NCBI GenBank assembly: GCA_943359455.1
Contig: CALRHL010000005.1
Coordinates: 1-51,893, forward strand
Length of the DNA: 51,893 nt
Direction of reading: 5' to 3'
Source: Candidatus Uhrbacteria bacterium RIFOXYB12_FULL_58_10
GTDB lineage: Bacteria > Patescibacteriota > Patescibacteriia > UBA9934 > GWF2-40-263
The notes under the pieces are model-generated. The model was not told the origin of the DNA, ran no database searches, and worked only from the letters and a program-made list of their open reading frames with translations. Made by a program: the position numbers and the translations under genes. Shown in pieces: positions 2 through 22,916 of the stretch (position 1 is the stretch's first letter; the number at the start of each line of letters is the position of its first letter).

Positions 2-178
2 ATCATCGTTCCCTTTACCAAACTCGGTGAACGCATCTTTCATTTCGTCATTCCAACAACGAGTCATCTCCTCCTGATCGTTGGTCTCGTTATGATCTAT
101 TTTGTTGTGACAGAAATCGTCAAGCGCCTGTACTATCGAAGAACAGATCGAACGGCATTCTATGGACCCAAAGGATGA
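2..178 (+). CDS. C-terminal end of a cation-transporting P-type ATPase (partial)
   Basis: The reading frame is open from the window edge to a TGA at 176-178, giving about 58 residues. It contains one hydrophobic helix (SHLLLIVGLVMIYFVV) followed by TEIVKRLYYRR. A last membrane helix followed by a basic VKR-x-x-YRR tail is typical of magnesium-type P-type ATPases, which pump divalent cations across the membrane. The catalytic domains lie outside the window, so the substrate cannot be judged. The end overlaps the dnaG start by 17 nt in another frame. Any other multi-pass transporter with a similar tail is possible. Confidence 0.55.
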   Translation: MIVPFTKLGERIFHFVIPTTSHLLLIVGLVMIYFVVTEIVKRLYYRRTDRTAFYGPKG

Positions 179-2033
179 AATCAAATCAAGGCTCGATATT
201 GCCGAACTCATCGGCGAGTATTTGACATTGAAGCCAGCTGGGGTTTCACGTTTTCGTGCACTCTGTCCATTTCATACAGAAAAGACCCCTTCCTTTCATG
301 TCTCAGTAGACAAACAAATTTGGCATTGCTTTGGGTGTAACGAAGGGGGAGATTGCTTTTCCTTTGTGATGAAAATGGAAGGAATGGATTTTCCAGAAGC
401 GTTGTTGCATTTGGGAAAAAAAGTTGGAGTCGAGGTTCCGAGATATGCGGCGACGGATACCAATGAAAAACAACGGTTGATCGACATGCACGAACTCGCG
501 CGAAAATATTTTCGAAAAGTTTTGATGGAATCAAGTCTTGCGGTCACAGTCAGAGACTATGTGACACGGCGAGGAATTAACGATGAGCTTGCAGAAAAAT
601 TTAGCATTGGGTTTGCACCAGACACCTGGGATTCGCTCGTTGGATTTTTGGGAACGCGTGGATATTCAGCGACCGAAATAGAAAAAGCAGGTCTTGCGCT
701 TCGACGAAAAGATGGAAGTGGTTTGTATGATCGTTTCAGAAATCGTCTGATGATTCCGTTGCGTGACCAACACGGAAATACCGTTGGGTTTACCGGACGA
801 ATGATGCCTGGATCCTCTGAAAAAGATAGTGCAAAGTACATGAATTCTCCAGAAACTCAGATTTACCATAAAGGACGATTACTGTTTGGACTGGATCTTG
901 CGAAGCAGACGATTAAACAAGAAGGACGCGTGATTATTGTTGAAGGAAATCTTGATGTGGTCGCGTCTCATAAAGCGGGTGTTGAAAATGTTGTTGCGTC
1001 ATCTGGGACAGCCCTGACGGAAGAGCATCTTGCCCTTCTTAAACGTTTTACAAAAACGATCGTTTTTTCGTTTGACGCAGATGCGGCAGGATTTAAAGCG
1101 GCACAGCGTGGAATTGCCCTTGCTCGCGGCTCTCTATTTGACGTTCGAGTCGCCGTCCTTCCTATCGACGCAGGAAAAGATCCGGATGATGCTGTTCAAA
1201 AAAATCCACAGCTTTGGCGCGATGCGACATCAGATACCGCTCCGATTATGCAATACATCATTGAACGCGCCGTCGTTGAGCGAGACCTGACAAACATCGA
1301 TGATAAGCGAGCGGTTGCGGCACTTGTGCTGCCAGAACTTGAACAGATTTCGGACGTTGTCGAGCGCGAGCATTGGTTGCAGACCGTCGCAGATATTTTA
1401 AGAATTGACACTGCCCAGCTCCGTCCTGTCTCATGGGGGCGTCCCACTTCGCTAGGGCTTCGAGGGACAAGTAGGGACGGGGCCCCCATCGCCCGGAGCG
1501 AGAGGCTTGCGAAGTCAAGACCGAGTGAGGACGATGGGGTGTCGCGAAGCTCGGGGCCCCATGTGAAGCCTGCAGAGCACCGCCTGTCCCGCGACGAGCA
1601 GGCTGCTCGAGCCTTGCTCGCCTTTTTCATCCAGGATCCATCGATCCGCCCAGTCCTCATTCTTTCCCTTGAAGAGTCGCTCATCCCAACAGATAATCTA
1701 CGCATTCTTTACAATCACCTTCGCGAAGAGTACAATTCCTCTCAGTCAGTGGACGCGTCAAACCCATCATTTTATGGTCGGCTCTCTGCCCGTTTATCGG
1801 GCCTGGATCTCGCCCTTCTTCAGGAGCTCGCGCTCCTTGGGGAAACGCTTGTATCCGATATGCCTTCCGATCGGGTTTCTGAACAGATCCACGAACTTCT
1901 TCATTCTCTTAGCTCGTCTGCCCGTGATCGTCGTCGAAAAGCGATTGAGGGGGACATGCGCCGTGCAGAATCTGCCGGTGACCGAGATACCGTGAATCGA
2001 TTGATAGAAGAATTAAATAGTCTTCGCCCTTAG
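162..2033 (+). CDS. dnaG: DNA primase DnaG
   Basis: Primase that makes RNA primers at the replication fork. The N-terminal CHC2 zinc finger is intact (CPFH near residues 36-39, then CFGC near 56-59), followed by the RNA-polymerase core with [10 protein letters not shown] near 229-238. The TOPRIM domain shows VEGNLDVV (about 259-266) and the acidic [11 protein letters not shown]-terminal helical segment fits the helicase-binding domain. At 623 aa it is near family length, but about 44 residues between TOPRIM and the C-terminal domain (DNA 1431-1562) are a palindromic repeat insert shared with recJ. Start is ATG at 162, overlapping the preceding gene; rpoD follows 25 nt after the stop, an arrangement resembling the classical dnaG-rpoD macromolecular synthesis operon. 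Confidence 0.97.
1431..1562 (+). repeat. In-frame palindromic insertion element, copy 1 (in dnaG)
   Basis: GC-rich block bounded by TCATGGGGGC and GGGGCCCCATG, with internal arms CCCCATCG (1484-1491) and CGATGGGG (1532-1539). Positions 1476-1561 match the reverse complement of the recJ block at 21713-21814 with about four substitutions and a 2-nt indel. This copy has about 28 extra nt on its left side. It is read in frame as a serine/arginine-rich linker (around [17 protein letters not shown]) between dnaG domains. It resembles Rickettsia palindromic elements in behaviour; origin and mechanism are inferred. Confidence 0.85.
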
Positions 2034-5431: not shown

Positions 5432-5482
5432 TGAAATCAAATTTTTGTAAGACAATCGAAAACCCACAATACCTAAGGGACC

Positions 5483-5611
5483 TGACCGTCACTTAGTGAC
5501 GGTCAAAACAGACGATGATCAAAATACATTTAGATAACGCTATAAAATAACAATGGAATTACAAGACAAACATCTAAAACGATCTGACCGTCACTAAGTG
5601 ACGGTCAGATC
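5483..5611. repeat. Element with two terminal perfect palindromes, copy A
   Basis: TGACCGTCACT-T-AGTGACGGTCA at 5483-5505 and the same motif with the opposite central base at 5585-5607 (extended to GATC...GATC, 5581-5611) flank about 79 nt of AT-rich sequence. The block is repeated almost exactly at 7520-7653. The palindromes could be operators upstream of the membrane-protein gene or the ends of a small non-autonomous mobile element. Confidence 0.75.
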
Positions 5612-7424: not shown

Positions 7425-7519
7425 CGACATCGGATTTTTGTAAGACAATCGAAAACCCACATCCCATGAAGAATGCGGGTTTTCTTGGTCACACCCTGTC
7501 CCGGTAGTAGGAACGGACC

Positions 7520-7653
7520 TGACCGTCACTTAGTGACGGTCAAAACAGACGATGATCAAAATACATTTAGATAACGCTATAAAATAACAATAGAATTACA
7601 AGAAAAACATCTAAAGCGATCTGACCGTCACTAAGTGACGGTCAGATCGCTTT
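7520..7653. repeat. Element with two terminal perfect palindromes, copy B
   Basis: The palindromes are at 7520-7542 and 7622-7644; the second extends to 20-bp arms around one central base (7613-7653, AAAGCGATCTGACCGTCACT and its complement). The AT-rich interior is nearly identical to 5506-5580. The rest of 7654-7736 shows no gene. Confidence 0.75.
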
Positions 7654-9536: not shown

Positions 9537-9566
9537 ATAACACCACCTATTACGAGTGGTGTTTTG
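9537..9566 (-). terminator. Terminator after tRNA-Gln copy 1
   Basis: On the minus strand AACACCACTC...AGGTGGTGTTATTTTG: an imperfect copy of the terminator at 9705-9738, duplicated with the tRNA. Confidence 0.6.
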
Positions 9567-9567
9567 A

Positions 9568-9690
9568 TGGTTCCGGGACATGGATTCGAACCATGATTAA
9601 GGGATTCAGAGTCCCTCGTCCCCTCGGCCGTAGACCGTAGGCTTGCAAGTCTCCGGCCTACGGGCGAGGCTGCCGTTAGACGATCCCAGA
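9568..9690 (-). tRNA. tRNA-Gln (CUG) copy 1, with a 49-nt hairpin in the D loop
   Basis: The 3' 53 nt (anticodon arm with loop CTCTGAA, T arm, acceptor strand, encoded CCA) are identical to copy 2. Between GTCTAACGGCAG and GAC, inside the D loop, there are 49 extra nt (9621-9669). The D stem is preserved. The acceptor 5' strand is TCTGGGA, still pairing with TCCCGGA through one U-G. It is either a tRNA with a grossly enlarged D arm or a pseudogene; the intact copy beside it would relax selection. Confidence 0.7.
9621..9669. repeat. 49-nt palindromic insert within tRNA-Gln copy 1
   Basis: CCTCGGCCGTAG (9622-9633) and CTACGGGCGAGG (9658-9669) pair over 12 positions with one mismatch. A nested alternative pairing uses CCGTAGGC and GCCTACGG. 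Removing exactly 49 nt restores the copy 2 sequence. Confidence 0.8.
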
Positions 9691-9704: not shown

Positions 9705-9738
9705 TCAAAACACCACTCAATTACGAGTGGTGTTTTGA
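9705..9738 (-). terminator. Terminator after tRNA-Gln copy 2
   Basis: TCAAAACACCACTC and GAGTGGTGTTTTGA form a 14-bp perfect stem with a 6-nt loop directly downstream (minus strand) of the tRNA 3' end. Confidence 0.8.
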
Positions 9739-9812
9739 TGGTTCCGGGACATGGATTCGAACCATGATTAAGGGATTCAGAGTCCCTCGTCCTGCCGTTA
9801 GACGATCCCGGA
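9739..9812 (-). tRNA. tRNA-Gln (anticodon CUG), intact copy
   Basis: A complete 74-nt cloverleaf: acceptor TCCGGGA/TCCCGGA, D arm GTC-TAACGGCAG-GAC, anticodon arm AGGGA-CTCTGAA-TCCCT with CTG at 34-36, T arm CATGG-TTCGAAT-CCATG, discriminator A and encoded CCA. It reads CAG codons. A perfect terminator follows. Copy 1 is a tandem duplicate. Confidence 0.93.
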
Positions 9813-17248: not shown

Positions 17249-19135
17249 ATGTCAGAAAGAGGGAATCGTTATCACCAATCATCGACCGACTCGACATACA
17301 TTGGCGAGTCCGTTGTTACGATGCGCTATGCCGACCTCCAGCCGGCTGTTCGCACGCATGTTGATAATCTCACCGAACAGATAGCAGATCTTGTTCGCAA
17401 GTATGGAAAAAAGCATCCCAAGGAGTTGGTGGAGCTTATGGAAAATGAGGAGATGAGCATCGAGGATGTACGAAAATTTGGCGCGCTTGGGAAAGCGATC
17501 GGGGAGATGTTTGAAAAGAATATGTTGCCTCGTGAGTTAGAAAAAGTTGTAAAGTCCCTTCGAAAGAAAGCATTGTCGCAGTGTGTTGATGCAGAAAATG
17601 TCTACTCTGAACACTTAGAACCAGATGGTTTAAAAGAAGTTTTTCCACATGATCGTCGTAAGTTTTTTGGAGCGTACTTACGTCTTTCGCGATCTAACGA
17701 TATTTTAAAGGAATTAGATAGTCATCTTACTGGGTTGGATCTAGCAAAAGGGTTTGCCATCCAGGGAGATTTTCAGTCCGCGCTTGCATTCCTTGGACCG
17801 AATAACAAACAGTATGACTGGAAAAAAACAGCACTAGATATTGCAAGACTTGCATTTAAGAAAGAAAGGAATGATGTCATGGAACGTTTGTTTGTCGAAG
17901 TTGAACCAGATCGAACAAAGGATACTGTCCTACAATCTGTTATCAGAAAATGTATTTCGATGAAGGAATTTGATCGTGCAAAGATGTTTGCAATGAGTTT
18001 AAGTACGCTCTCTGGAAAAGCGAGGGATTTAATATCAATTGCTCAATCGGAAGCAAGATCAGGCTCTGGGTGGCTCGATTCTTTACAACTCGCTGAACAG
18101 TGTTTGTCTGACTCTTTTCAAGAGACATTGTTGGTTCGTGATAAAGGCCTAAAGAATATCGCGTGTCTGTATGCTCGCCAAGGAGACATTGATAATGCGA
18201 TTCGAGTTTATTCGAACCTATCCATACACAGCTCTCGAACGAGTCTTCCAGATTTTGCTTCTGACTTTGTTTCTTCTGGTAACGACGAGCAAGCATTCTC
18301 GCTCGTACAATCAGGCACTTTATCGACAGATATAGAGACAAAGTTTCAATCGTTTCTTTCCATTGCCATTGCTCAGGCAAGTAACCAGAAGATGAGCGAT
18401 ACCGCATTACGATTTGCGTTAACTGTTGCAGAACAAAATTCAAAGAAAGGATTACTCCAAAATATTCGTTTCGCACCTCGTTTAGTTCTTGCTTATTTGC
18501 TCAGAGGAGAGATGGACGATGCCATACGAATTTTTACATCAATCGATACAACTCCTATTGCAAAAATGAGCACAACAAACCTTCTGCGCGTCGCGTCTGA
18601 ATTGGAGGAATTAGGCTTGGAGATGCATCAAAAAAAACAAGATCTAAAATCAGTTATTAATCTTCTTTTTTCTGTTGTTAAGGAATATGATCATGATCAC
18701 ATCGTCTCAGGTTTTACTGATCTCGCAGATATTTTACGGCAGGTTGGGAGGAATCCAATCCAGGCATTGGAATGCGCGAGAGATTATGAGAATAAAAATA
18801 GACGTGATGGCTCCATGTATGGATACGCGATGATCATCGAAGCCTATGTGAAAAATCATTGCGATCCGACGCCGATTATCAATGACGCGCTCGTCTATGC
18901 AGAAAAGTTGTTAGGAGTAGATGAAATTTTTGAAGCGCTGACGACGATTGCAGAAGAAATGATCTCTGATGGGTTGGATATTGAAACCGTCATAGATGCA
19001 GGGCGTCGTGTGACAACAGGTCGTGAAATGCGAGAGAATCCAAGTCTCGGTTGGAGGGCTTGGTACGTATTTCAGATGAGTCTTTCTGCGGCATTACTCG
19101 ATAAGGCCGAAGAGTTAGACCGTGGAATGGTATGA
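17249..19135 (+). CDS. Large helical-repeat protein, tandem paralog 1
   Basis: A 628-aa soluble protein without signal peptide or membrane helix. Residues about 24-98 (YADLQPAVRTHVDNLTEQ...) are an almost identical module in the next gene. The rest is predicted helical and TPR/solenoid-like, with repeats around ALAFLGPNN, AIRVYSNLS and DDAIRIFTSI and a closing LLDKAEELDR. It is probably a scaffold or partner-binding protein; no catalytic motif. Start ATG at 17249, 4 nt after lepA; its stop overlaps the next start as ATGA. Confidence 0.75.
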   Translation: MSERGNRYHQSSTDSTYIGESVVTMRYADLQPAVRTHVDNLTEQIADLVRKYGKKHPKELVELMENEEMSIEDVRKFGALGKAIGEMFEKNMLPRELEKVVKSLRKKALSQCVDAENVYSEHLEPDGLKEVFPHDRRKFFGAYLRLSRSNDILKELDSHLTGLDLAKGFAIQGDFQSALAFLGPNNKQYDWKKTALDIARLAFKKERNDVMERLFVEVEPDRTKDTVLQSVIRKCISMKEFDRAKMFAMSLSTLSGKARDLISIAQSEARSGSGWLDSLQLAEQCLSDSFQETLLVRDKGLKNIACLYARQGDIDNAIRVYSNLSIHSSRTSLPDFASDFVSSGNDEQAFSLVQSGTLSTDIETKFQSFLSIAIAQASNQKMSDTALRFALTVAEQNSKKGLLQNIRFAPRLVLAYLLRGEMDDAIRIFTSIDTTPIAKMSTTNLLRVASELEELGLEMHQKKQDLKSVINLLFSVVKEYDHDHIVSGFTDLADILRQVGRNPIQALECARDYENKNRRDGSMYGYAMIIEAYVKNHCDPTPIINDALVYAEKLLGVDEIFEALTTIAEEMISDGLDIETVIDAGRRVTTGREMRENPSLGWRAWYVFQMSLSAALLDKAEELDRGMV

Positions 19136-21048
19136 ACGAATCATCACAAAGACAATCGAGTCCCGACGTACGTAGTGCCGTTTCTGAGGCAACCACGCAT
19201 GTTTCGTATGCCGACCTCCAGCCGGCTGTTCGCACGCATGTTGATAATCTCACCGAACAGATGGCAGAGCTTGTTCGCAAGTATGGAAAAAAGCATCCAA
19301 AGGAGTTGGTGGAGCTTATGGAAAATGAGGAGATGAGTATCGAGGATGTACGAAAATTTGGCGCGCTTGGGAGATCGATTGGGGAGATGTTTGAAAAGAA
19401 TATGTTGCCTAAGGAGATGCGGAGGGATGCTTTGAGATTACGAGAAGAAGCAGAGAGACTTTTTCTGGAGGCGGATGAGCTATTTGAAAGACATCAATTG
19501 GGTGGAAATCAGCTTGATGCTCTTCCAGTTGAGGATCGAATTTCTGTTGGGGCAGGATATCTCCGTTTTGGGAACGATAAAATTTTACGTTCCATCTTGT
19601 ATGTTCCAAGGGAAGCTGCACAGCTTTTTGCATTGGCGGAAGATTATCCGACAGCAAATCAAAAGGCCTCGATGATTTTGAACATGATCGAAAAAAATTT
19701 GGTTCTTCTTCAAATCGCCAAATCTGCATGGAAACGAAGAAATAATGAGGCGTTTGAAACATCAATCGAAAATGCAGATCCGAGCCACTCGAAGGACGCA
19801 TTTCTTGAAATGGTTATCCGTGACGTCTTAGATGAAAAAGATTTTGAAACAGCAGAATATCTTGCAGAATCTGGTAGTGACTGGGTTAAACGCGCGGAAA
19901 TGTTTTTAACCATTGCTCACCAAGCAATCTCGATAAAACAAGAAGCGATTCACTCTATACAACGAGCGGAAGAGGAAATACCAAAAGAATATATCTCTGA
20001 TAACGGAATTCATGGAAAAATTGCCGTTCAGTATGCGCGTTTTGGTATGGTCGAGGATGTAAAGAGAGTTATGAAGAAAGGTTTAGCATTTATCACCTTT
20101 TCTTTGCCAGAAATCGCGGAAGGGTTTGTTGCTTTTGGTCAAGATGAGGCGGCATTGAAACTCGGCTCAGAATTACCAAATTGGGAAGTGATGTCGCGTA
20201 TGAAGGTGTTTGGAGCAATTGCGATTGAACAGGTAAAACGCGGGAGAAATTCCGATAAGGCATTCAAAGTAGTACGGGAAACTTCTCAGATTTTTTCTGA
20301 TCCATTTCAAGGAGTGACCGCAAATATTATTCTTGCGCAGGCTCATTTTTCCCGAGGTGAGCACGTGGAGTTTTCGCACACGCTTTCCCTGATTGAAAAA
20401 GGAATTGAAAAAGTTGCCCTAAAGAGTGATAAAAAATTAGTTTATTTAGATTTAGAAGATTTTGCAAAAAAAATATATGAACAAAGAAAGGATCCCCAAC
20501 AGGTGATTCGAGTTATGGATAAGCTCATTTCATCTGAAGAGAATCTACAGGAGTTATGTGACAAACAACTCTCCTTTGCAAGATTTTTACATTCCATTCA
20601 TCAAACAGATGATCGTACCATCAATGTTGAAGATGTCCTTATGGTCGCGAGAGAAACGGCAGAGAGAAGAGAGTCGGTATGGCTTCTGCTTGAAGTGGCA
20701 CGAGCATCTTTTCAAATCGCATCAAAGTTTACAAATGTAAGTTTCGAAAAAGCCATTTATGTCGCATTAGATAAATTGCATAAGGGGATACAAGATCGTC
20801 TCGCAATCGATCTTTATTACGAGGATTTCTTCAAGAGTATGAGATCAATTATTGAAGCAAAAGCGAGTGCAGGCTTTTCTTATACAGAACAGATTGATTT
20901 GCTTCAAGAAGAAATGAGCAATTTTCGAGGAAAAAAAGAGTTTCATGCAAAATTTTTTGCATTGCAGCTATCTCTTGTAAACATTTTTCTTGATAAAGCC
21001 CAGGAATTAGACAGAGAAAATCGTTTTATTAAATTTGAAAAAACATGA
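19132..21048 (+). CDS. Large helical-repeat protein, tandem paralog 2
   Basis: A 638-aa paralog of the preceding protein. The N-terminal module (about residues 23-98) is nearly identical in DNA (about 19207-19420 versus 17325-17538), whereas the remaining roughly 530 residues are only distantly similar yet keep the same helical layout and the ending LDKAQELDR. This contrast suggests gene conversion or strong constraint on the module. ATGA overlaps join it to both neighbours, so it is co-translated with recJ. No known family recognised. Confidence 0.75.
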   Translation: MNESSQRQSSPDVRSAVSEATTHVSYADLQPAVRTHVDNLTEQMAELVRKYGKKHPKELVELMENEEMSIEDVRKFGALGRSIGEMFEKNMLPKEMRRDALRLREEAERLFLEADELFERHQLGGNQLDALPVEDRISVGAGYLRFGNDKILRSILYVPREAAQLFALAEDYPTANQKASMILNMIEKNLVLLQIAKSAWKRRNNEAFETSIENADPSHSKDAFLEMVIRDVLDEKDFETAEYLAESGSDWVKRAEMFLTIAHQAISIKQEAIHSIQRAEEEIPKEYISDNGIHGKIAVQYARFGMVEDVKRVMKKGLAFITFSLPEIAEGFVAFGQDEAALKLGSELPNWEVMSRMKVFGAIAIEQVKRGRNSDKAFKVVRETSQIFSDPFQGVTANIILAQAHFSRGEHVEFSHTLSLIEKGIEKVALKSDKKLVYLDLEDFAKKIYEQRKDPQQVIRVMDKLISSEENLQELCDKQLSFARFLHSIHQTDDRTINVEDVLMVARETAERRESVWLLLEVARASFQIASKFTNVSFEKAIYVALDKLHKGIQDRLAIDLYYEDFFKSMRSIIEAKASAGFSYTEQIDLLQEEMSNFRGKKEFHAKFFALQLSLVNIFLDKAQELDRENRFIKFEKT

Positions 21049-22916
21049 CAAAACACTGGATCACAAATCAACAGGCGTCGGATGAGTTTCGGCAACAGTT
21101 TCCGGAGGTGCATCCGGTTGTTTTGTCGCTGCTGTGGAATCGAGGGGTGCGGACACAGGAGGAAGTTGATGTTTTTTTTGGTCCGGACTGGAGTCGGGAT
21201 GTTTTTTCGCCAAGTTTGTTTCGGAATATGGACGTGGCTGTTACGAAGGTTTTTGAGGTGCTCGTGAATAGCGAGATGATCACCGTGCATGGCGATTACG
21301 ACGCGGACGGGGTTTGTGGATCGGCGGTGCTGATTTCGACGCTTAGGGATTTGTGTCGCGCGTTTGGATTTGACGAGTCGAAGATTAGCTCGTTTATTCC
21401 AGATCGGGAAAAAGATGGATATGGGATGTCTGTTGCGACGGTTGAGCATTTGGCTTTGCACGACAAGACGAAGCTGATTATTACGGTGGATTGTGGAATT
21501 TCGAACAAGCCAGCGATTGATCGAGCAAAGGAGCTTGGGATTGATACGATTGTGTGTGATCATCATACGATGCCGGCGGAACTGCCGGATGCAGCAATTC
21601 TGATCCATCCGCTTGTTCCGGGGGAAACGTATCCGAACAAGACGCTGTGTGGAACAGGGGTTGCTTTCAAGCTGGCGTGCGGGTTACTGGAGGCGGGGCG
21701 AGTACAGCAAGCTCATGGGGCCCCGCTTCGCGACACCCCATCGTCCTCACTCGGTCTCGACTCCGCGAGCCTCTCGCTCCGGTCGATGGGGGCCCCGTCG
21801 CTACGCCCCCATGAGCCAGTGACTGCTTCTGGTTTGATTCCTGACGGTCACGAAAAATGGCTTTTGGATCTGGTTGCGATCGCGACCGTGACGGACGTGA
21901 TGCCACTTACAGGAGAGAATCGATTGTTGGAAACGTTTGGCCTCAAAGTTCTGAACAAAACAAAACGTGTTGGACTTCGGAAATTAATAGAAATTTCAGG
22001 AGGAAAATTTGGCGAACTCGACACGTACTCGATCGGGTTTCAGATTGGTCCACGTATAAATGCGGCGGGACGAATGCATCACGCAAGTGCTGCACTCAAC
22101 GTTTTGCTTGAGGAAGATGAGTTGCGCGCGACGGTCCTTGTGAGTGAATTAAATGCGTTGAATATCGTCAGACAAAAAGCTTCAGACGCGATGTATAAGG
22201 AGGCGATGGGGAAGATTGAAGCGAAGCAGTCTCTCATCATCGTCACAGGCGACGGTTGGTCGGCTGGGTTGGTTGGACTTGTGGCAGGGAAACTTGTGAA
22301 TCAGTTTGGGAAACCTGTGTATGTCGTCGGACGGTCACCGGACGGGAAATATGTCGGATCAGGTCGATCGGTGGAGGGATTTGATGTGACGGAATGTTTG
22401 CGTTCGGCTGCAGATGATCTCGACAAATTTGGCGGACATCCGCAAGCGTGTGGATTTTCGGTGACAGGAGATGAGAAATTCGAGCGTGCATCAAAAAAAA
22501 TGTATGCGTTCGCCGAAAACGCACTCAAAGATCGCGAGCTCGTTCCCACTGTCAAAATCGACGCGGTGATCGATCTGTCCGACGTGACGTGGGTCCTTCT
22601 CGATCAACTCCAATGTTTCGCTCCATTTGGCGAAAAGAATCCCAAGCCACTTTTTTCCTGCACAAAAGTTTCTGTTTCAAATATCGGAACGGTCGGAGCT
22701 GACGCCAAGCATCTCCGCCTGACGGTTACGTCGGCAAGTGGTAAGATGGTCAAAATGATCGGTTTTGGTTTTGGGGAATGGGCACAAAAAGTCCGTCTTG
22801 GTGATAAAATCGATGTTGTGTTTGAGCTTGGGGTGAATGAGTGGAATGGGAATAGAGAATTGCAGTTGAGAATTGTGGATATGAAAATACCTGTAGTGAG
22901 TAAAATCGAACTATGA
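21045..22916 (+). CDS. recJ: Single-stranded-DNA exonuclease RecJ with palindromic insert
   Basis: A 5'-3' exonuclease of the DHH superfamily in recombination and repair, 623 aa. Motifs are HGDYDADGVCGSAVL (about 84-98), VDCGIS, CDHHTMP (about 172-178) and GPRINAAGRMHH (about 338-349); a C-terminal OB-like domain follows. A 34-codon palindromic element (21713-21814) lies in frame between CGLLEAGRVQ and EKWLLDLVAIATV, where relatives have a short loop. The last residues PVVSKIEL lie in another dispersed repeat. The start overlaps the upstream gene and the stop overlaps rnhA, both as ATGA. Confidence 0.95.
   Translation: MTKHWITNQQASDEFRQQFPEVHPVVLSLLWNRGVRTQEEVDVFFGPDWSRDVFSPSLFRNMDVAVTKVFEVLVNSEMITVHGDYDADGVCGSAVLISTLRDLCRAFGFDESKISSFIPDREKDGYGMSVATVEHLALHDKTKLIITVDCGISNKPAIDRAKELGIDTIVCDHHTMPAELPDAAILIHPLVPGETYPNKTLCGTGVAFKLACGLLEAGRVQQAHGAPLRDTPSSSLGLDSASLSLRSMGAPSLRPHEPVTASGLIPDGHEKWLLDLVAIATVTDVMPLTGENRLLETFGLKVLNKTKRVGLRKLIEISGGKFGELDTYSIGFQIGPRINAAGRMHHASAALNVLLEEDELRATVLVSELNALNIVRQKASDAMYKEAMGKIEAKQSLIIVTGDGWSAGLVGLVAGKLVNQFGKPVYVVGRSPDGKYVGSGRSVEGFDVTECLRSAADDLDKFGGHPQACGFSVTGDEKFERASKKMYAFAENALKDRELVPTVKIDAVIDLSDVTWVLLDQLQCFAPFGEKNPKPLFSCTKVSVSNIGTVGADAKHLRLTVTSASGKMVKMIGFGFGEWAQKVRLGDKIDVVFELGVNEWNGNRELQLRIVDMKIPVVSKIEL
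21713..21814 (-). repeat. In-frame palindromic insertion element, copy 2 (in recJ)
   Basis: Exactly 102 nt (34 codons) bounded by TCATGGGG and CCCCATGA. It is the reverse complement of the dnaG element core (1476-1561). In recJ it is translated around [24 protein letters not shown]; the dnaG copy is open in that same frame on its minus strand, so the element can be read through from either side. Confidence 0.87.
22888..22915 (+). repeat. Start-codon-adjacent repeat R3, copy 1
   Basis: TACCTGTAGTGAG followed by TAAAATCGAACTATG; the ATG is the rnhA start and the upstream part encodes the RecJ C-terminus. A copy with three substitutions lies at 24997-25024, ending at the pilD ATG. Confidence 0.7.

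Follow-up and report, generated by a model that had tools for sequence, protein, structure and literature searches.

A family of GC-rich palindromes carried in frame by recJ and other genes of a Candidatus Uhrbacteria genus

The available part of the MITE review PMC10969869 describes Rickettsia palindromic elements (RPEs; Ogata 2000, 2002), which are about 150 nt long and are often found in frame in genes. Intragenic REPs were described by Di Nocera 2013 (PMC3733652). As far as the accessible portion of that paper reports, GTAG and CGTC REPs occur within genes, many of them for DNA synthesis or repair, and the host genes include uvrA, uvrB, uvrD and recB. In one case, different REPs were present at about the same site of recB. 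The CGTC repeats have no linked transposase, and mutator effects of intragenic REPs were suggested. We found no earlier report of coding palindromes in Patescibacteria in the open-access literature, and the repeats described here extend such palindromes to this phylum.

The host is an uncultured ultra-small bacterium, Candidatus Uhrbacteria bacterium RIFOXYB12_FULL_58_10, whose genome (G000) comprises 1.07 Mb in 44 contigs. Most of the named relatives with a similar RecJ are likewise Candidatus Uhrbacteria. The window, which is the whole stretch of DNA analysed here, has a length of 51,893 nucleotides. It contains an intact recJ ORF with the Pfam domains DHH, DHHA1 and RecJ_OB. An earlier note on this DNA had proposed a repeated palindromic segment of 102 nt within this gene, and this was confirmed (Table 1). 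The segment starts with TCATGGGG and ends with CCCCATGA, and 80 nt of it are 94% complementary to positions 1471-1550, where an inverted copy lies in dnaG. A BLAST search of the host genome gave seven copies with a best non-self E value of 6e-40, so the match between recJ and dnaG is not due to chance. The two copies are different states of one element, as had been suggested. The extra sequence ascribed to the left arm of the dnaG copy is real and, judged by eye, constitutes a hairpin just inside its left end.

Table 1 Positions of the recJ and dnaG features within the window
Feature	Position	Strand	Remark
dnaG, primase	162..2033	+	inverted in-frame copy in linker after DnaB-binding region
Family-1 element in dnaG	1432..1563	-	reverse orientation relative to recJ copy
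Extra hairpin GTCCC...GGGAC near one end of dnaG copy	1441..1470	.	direct reading
recJ, single-strand-specific exonuclease	21045..22916	+	623 codons, intact ORF, in-frame palindrome inside
Family-1 palindromic element, extent given in the earlier note	21713..21814	+	102 nt
Outer helix, 5' arm CATGGGG	21714..21720	+	partner CCCCATG at 21807-21813
Second helix, 5' arm GCGAC	21730..21734	+	partner GTCGC in 3' half; strong covariation among copies
Third helix, 5' arm CCCCATCG	21736..21743	+	partner CGATGGGG in 3' half
Predicted disordered RecJ loop, codons 227-262	21723..21830	+	pLDDT < 50, between confidently modelled helices 203-223 and 269-283

Starting from nine copies, we built a covariance model and used it to assemble family 1, which comprises 18 GC-rich copies of about 79-134 nt in Ca. 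Uhrbacteria (Patescibacteria). All five genomes of the genus carry the family (7, 2, 5, 1 and 3 copies), and the model did not find it in the other 37 of the 42 genomes of the taxonomic family. An order-wide search gave matches in 6 of 72 genomes. The sixth, G042, belongs to another taxonomic family; its single, distant copy (E 1.2e-6) lies immediately 5' of recJ.

Ten copies are in frame within six genes: recJ and dnaG in each of G000, G002 and G004, dinB, uvrB and a UvrD-like helicase gene in G000, and tgt in G001. Gene names were taken from NCBIfam and Pfam, those of glyS and the atp genes by eye. Every coding copy is in frame and stop-free, with the dnaG copy of G002 interrupted by an assembly gap (a run of N) that makes its 5' half unreadable. 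Relative to the gene, recJ, dinB, uvrB and tgt carry the element in forward orientation; dnaG and the UvrD-like gene carry it reversed. Stop-free registers are commoner in coding copies (44 of 60) than in spacer copies (24 of 48), but GC-rich sequence is mostly open regardless; these counts are the part of the register analysis that we use, the register label of the recJ copy of G002 being unreliable. The other eight copies lie in spacers: near glyS, 5' of rnc, after recR, in the lexA-dinB and scpA-scpB gaps, and in the atpD-atpC gap of three genomes. The last is at an identical place in G002, G003 and G004, which indicates that copies can be old. A near-relative empty site exists for the lexA-dinB copy only (G002 against G003), and empty orthologues are also provided by RecJ of G001 and others, by UvrB loop B and by Tgt.

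The recJ and dnaG copies of the host are closer to other copies of the same genome than to the same-gene copies in G002 and G004. The recJ copy of G000 is at a distance of 0.037 from the rnc copy and 0.055 from the dnaG copy of that genome, and the recJ copies of G002 and G004 are 0.096 apart. In DnaG, the copies of G000 and G004 differ in the register in which they are read. Same-gene copies in different genomes may be independent arrivals in the same loop or may have been homogenised within each genome; judged from these sequences, both fit.

The earlier note regarded the recJ copy as a unit of exactly 34 codons with symmetric ends, neutral for the frame because its length is divisible by three. 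The length of 102 nt and the self-complementary arms stand. However, the palindrome reaches beyond the proposed ends, as GCTC...GAGC at 21711-21816, its outer arms vary by site, and RecJ gains a net 40 residues relative to the empty G001 orthologue (67 against 27). Most copies are not multiples of three. Position 21713 is the third base of a codon, 668 nt past the start of the ORF, and the frame is preserved across the whole insert with its flanks, not by the 102-nt unit itself. Because copy lengths vary and the outer arms change by site yet stay self-complementary, the idea of a fixed, frame-neutral unit with defined ends is not supported: the 34-codon exactness is a choice of boundary and not an intrinsic unit. 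A target duplication, which had also been raised, is not seen consistently across copies. The repeat GTGACAGG on both sides was found in uvrB only, in a comparison with few near-relative empty sites.

Family 1 is hairpin-forming. In the 17 copies compared (the rnc copy, of which only the core is present, was excluded), 28 pairs form four nested helices, with 93.5% of 397 cells paired. Fourteen of the pairs are altered on both sides, in 51 cells, a degree of compensatory change reached by none of 500 shuffles, and slid controls gave at most 4 pairs. The flanks beyond the core ATGGGG...CCCCAT also pair, in runs of 1-17 bases at 12 distinct sites. At nine of these the run is at least 3 bases long, which has a chance of 1e-14 under a simple model. 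The outer arms of the recJ copies differ between G002 and G004, and each is self-complementary. The flank pairing could mean either that dyads are the target or that the arms were copied from one another. It is possible that arm complementarity is kept by a need for pairing in mobility, or that one arm repeatedly templates the repair of the other.

Among the described systems, RPEs, as far as their available description goes, come closest. Family 1 shares with them the dispersed palindrome of ~100-150 nt that occurs in spacers as well as in frame within unrelated proteins, the presence of several families per genome, and a small, host-associated type of genome. It differs from them in its phylum, its four covarying nested helices and its site-specific outer arms, and the likeness is one of description. 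Like the intragenic REPs of the accessible part of PMC3733652, it consists of palindromes inside replication and repair genes. Unlike REPs, it is ~100 nt long with four helices and is neither an 8-9 bp tagged stem nor a stem-loop of 20-40 nt; CGTC is found inside most copies, not as an unpaired end tag. Family 1 resembles MITEs in being a short, non-autonomous, multi-copy inverted repeat, but it has neither a consistent target duplication nor a cognate transposase that we could find (the Y1 class was examined). By analogy, it is best filed as a candidate new family of protein-coding palindromes that would work like RPEs.

The RecJ loop can be followed through empty and filled states. RecJ was read in 47 of 51 genomes, the other 4 giving no match. 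From FKLACG to HEKWLL, RecJ has 27 residues in 18 of 24 relatives, and the loop is empty in all but six of the 47. It is filled by family 1 in G000, G002 and G004 (67, 66 and 67 residues) and is also longer in G003 (50), G028 (46) and G005 (32). No insert was found in the 23 RecJs detected in 27 further genomes of the taxonomic family. All five large expansions among the 47 are palindromes. The insert of G003 belongs to family 2, a repeat with 45 matches in that genome, and the insert of G028 to family 3, a REP-like repeat with 50 matches in its genome. The fold of the G028 insert is modestly better than that of shuffles (z -1.7, 14 of 200); its case is carried by the 50 matches. Three unrelated palindromes thus occupy one loop. 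The AlphaFold2 model of RecJ has a mean pLDDT of 87.3, with residues 227-262 below 50, and solved RecJ structures align on either side of the gap. The segment is therefore predicted to be a disordered loop outside the conserved core, in agreement with the surface-like position first proposed for it.

Two loops of UvrB show the same behaviour. Loop A, delimited by a chosen pattern, has 32, 34 and 40 residues in G001, G002 and G004. It has 58 in G000, where it contains the family-3 unit GCCACTTTAGTGGCGTC, and 59 in G003, where it contains family 2. G028 also carries family 3 in loop A, seen separately as the pattern did not pick up this loop. Loop B measures 28-30 residues in four genomes; with family 1 it reaches 59 in G000, and with family 3 it reaches 52 in G028. 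The comparison of family-2 and family-3 insertions with an empty orthologue covers recJ and uvrB. In the DnaG linker, three genomes carry family 1, and G003 has a different palindrome (z -5.3), which was absent from the family-2 search returns and whose family was judged by eye. The UvrD-like loop is occupied by family 1 in G000 and, in G002, by a short hairpin.

At one RecJ site and at two UvrB sites, these loops provide a natural series that runs from the empty state to occupation by family 1, family 2 or family 3. With it, the accumulation of palindromes in repair genes becomes a question that can be tested. While repair-gene palindromes are already published, the family, the phylum and the repeated use of RecJ and UvrB loops by unrelated families are new. 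The recurrence in the same loop (recJ and uvrB, three unrelated families) goes beyond the one recB example in the accessible part of PMC3733652, and it is the strongest open point.

Taken as a whole, the observations are best explained, and with good probability, by the recJ segment being a non-autonomous family-1 repeat that is spreading, or once spread, in the genus and is carried as a tolerated passenger. The repeat would spread, or would have spread, into both coding and spacer DNA of this Uhrbacteria genus. Coding copies would be transcribed and translated, and RecJ would gain a 40-residue disordered loop with its fold, to judge from the model, left intact. Only copies that keep the frame and land in tolerant loops would survive, and the rigid empty state seen elsewhere would follow from this restriction. 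We think that the copies are tolerated passengers with no function in RecJ.

It is possible, though on balance doubtful, that replication and repair genes are actively favoured as insertion sites, or that copies are selected for lowering or modulating repair, along the lines of the mutator idea of Di Nocera 2013. Replication and repair genes make up five of the six distinct family-1 host genes, compared with one of 26 control ORFs (Fisher p 1.7e-4). The controls come from six stretches of the host genome, where 40 of 67 listed ORFs were scanned and 26 had a Pfam domain. The one control in the class is DnaB; if the doubtful RNase_H_2 and HNH_repeat are counted there are three (p 0.0015). For families 2 and 3, a survey of 74 sites gave 30 with a spanning ORF, 12 of which were dropped for having no Pfam domain. 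Family 3 shows a similar excess, with four of six (recJ, uvrB, uvrA and radA, against ileS and an O-antigen ligase-like gene; p 0.002). Among spacer copies, one adjoins recR, one occupies the lexA-dinB gap and, in G042, one is situated 5' of recJ. The same excess was argued to be non-fortuitous in other phyla in the available text of PMC3733652. However, family 2 has three of ten (recJ, uvrB and ligA; p 0.057), and its other hosts are leuS, valS, pheT, tsaD, two Mur ligases and a glycosyltransferase, so that aminoacyl-tRNA synthetase and cell-wall genes carry inserts as well. Large multi-domain proteins with tolerant loops would yield the same pattern, and the functional category was picked after the genes were seen. 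Our best guess is that the repeated use of repair genes, and of the RecJ and UvrB loops, reflects tolerance together with an unexplained bias.

A bolder version, which we regard as unlikely, is that the loop of RecJ and both loops of UvrB serve as landing pads that draw, or repeatedly keep, unrelated palindromes within the same few codons, one arm then being rewritten from the other so that coding sequence covaries as a hairpin. If so, repair genes would carry structures on which their own products act, and reduced bacterial genomes would show this state recurrently, perhaps with a regulatory or mutator role.

There is a small chance that the segment is a structured RNA element of the mRNA, such as an RNase III site, a translational pause or an autoregulatory element, with its coding capacity incidental. 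The deep covariation, the recJ fold, which is more stable than shuffles (z -3.7), and a composite copy 5' of rnc fit this idea. Yet the orientation relative to the gene varies among copies, and the dnaG copy shows no gain in folding over shuffles (z -0.9). Few G.T pairs are present on either strand: the recJ strand has 369 Watson-Crick, 2 G.T, 13 A.C and 13 other cells, and on the opposite strand the 13 A.C cells become G.T, mostly through one change at one pair. A known RNA family was rejected, as the Rfam matches in the window are tRNAs only. Pairing is probably maintained mainly at the level of DNA.

GC-rich hairpin inserts in ORFs have the general shape of known bypass or excision elements. 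An intervening sequence that is missing from the mature protein, by mRNA excision or ribosome bypass, is nevertheless highly improbable here, despite this resemblance of the coding inserts, since each coding copy keeps the frame and lacks stops over its junctions, which excision or bypass would not need. The idea that the loop merely varies in the ordinary way and owes its palindromy to GC-rich low complexity could appeal to the variable length of the DnaG linker in relatives even without repeats, but it is refuted by the repeat family, with its 94% identical copies at unrelated loci, its covariation and the fixed RecJ loop length in relatives.

Regarding the mode of spread of the family-1 repeat, Y1 transposase genes are present in four of the five genus genomes, at seven loci, and absent from G003 despite its many family-2 copies. 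No family-1 copy was found to adjoin any of the seven loci, three of which (L126, L128 and L129) end at a contig edge, and the hairpins flanking Y1 genes, where found, are of another kind. The host has two Y1 (RAYT-like) genes, a likeness to REPIN/RAYT systems, but they are flanked by the palindromes TGACCGTCACTAAGTGACGGTCA and CTCCCGGCTCTCAGAGCCGGGAG and not by family 1. Mobilisation by these resident RAYTs via flanking copies was therefore rejected. A phage or plasmid origin was also rejected, as one search gave no match and the other a single 36-nt match (E 7e-3).

Several further repeats were observed. Palindromes of the TGACCGTCACTAAGTGACGGTCA type lie in repeated blocks of the window (5475-5611 and 7512-7653) and also flank the Y1 gene at L012; the second RAYT-like gene, L013 on contig C12 of G000, is flanked by CTCCCGGCTCTCAGAGCCGGGAG. 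The family-3 unit ends in CGTC, like CGTC-tagged REPs. Upstream of rnc on contig C27 of the host (L026/L005), the family-1 core is centred in a different long palindrome with GTGAGAACACAAGAATGTGAA arms, and the rnc gene of G003 likewise has a family-2 palindrome immediately on its 5' side (L141). The ligA gene of G003 (L189, contig C39) has two separate in-frame family-2 palindromes, and uvrB of G028 (L203, contig C28) has two in-frame family-3 palindromes, in both of the loops used in G000. In the window, an exact 73-nt duplication (9549-9621 and 9720-9792, 171 nt apart) surrounds a tRNA gene, and a 204-nt repeat with 97% identity (17327-17530 and 19207-19410) lies at the start of each of two neighbouring ORFs that immediately precede recJ.
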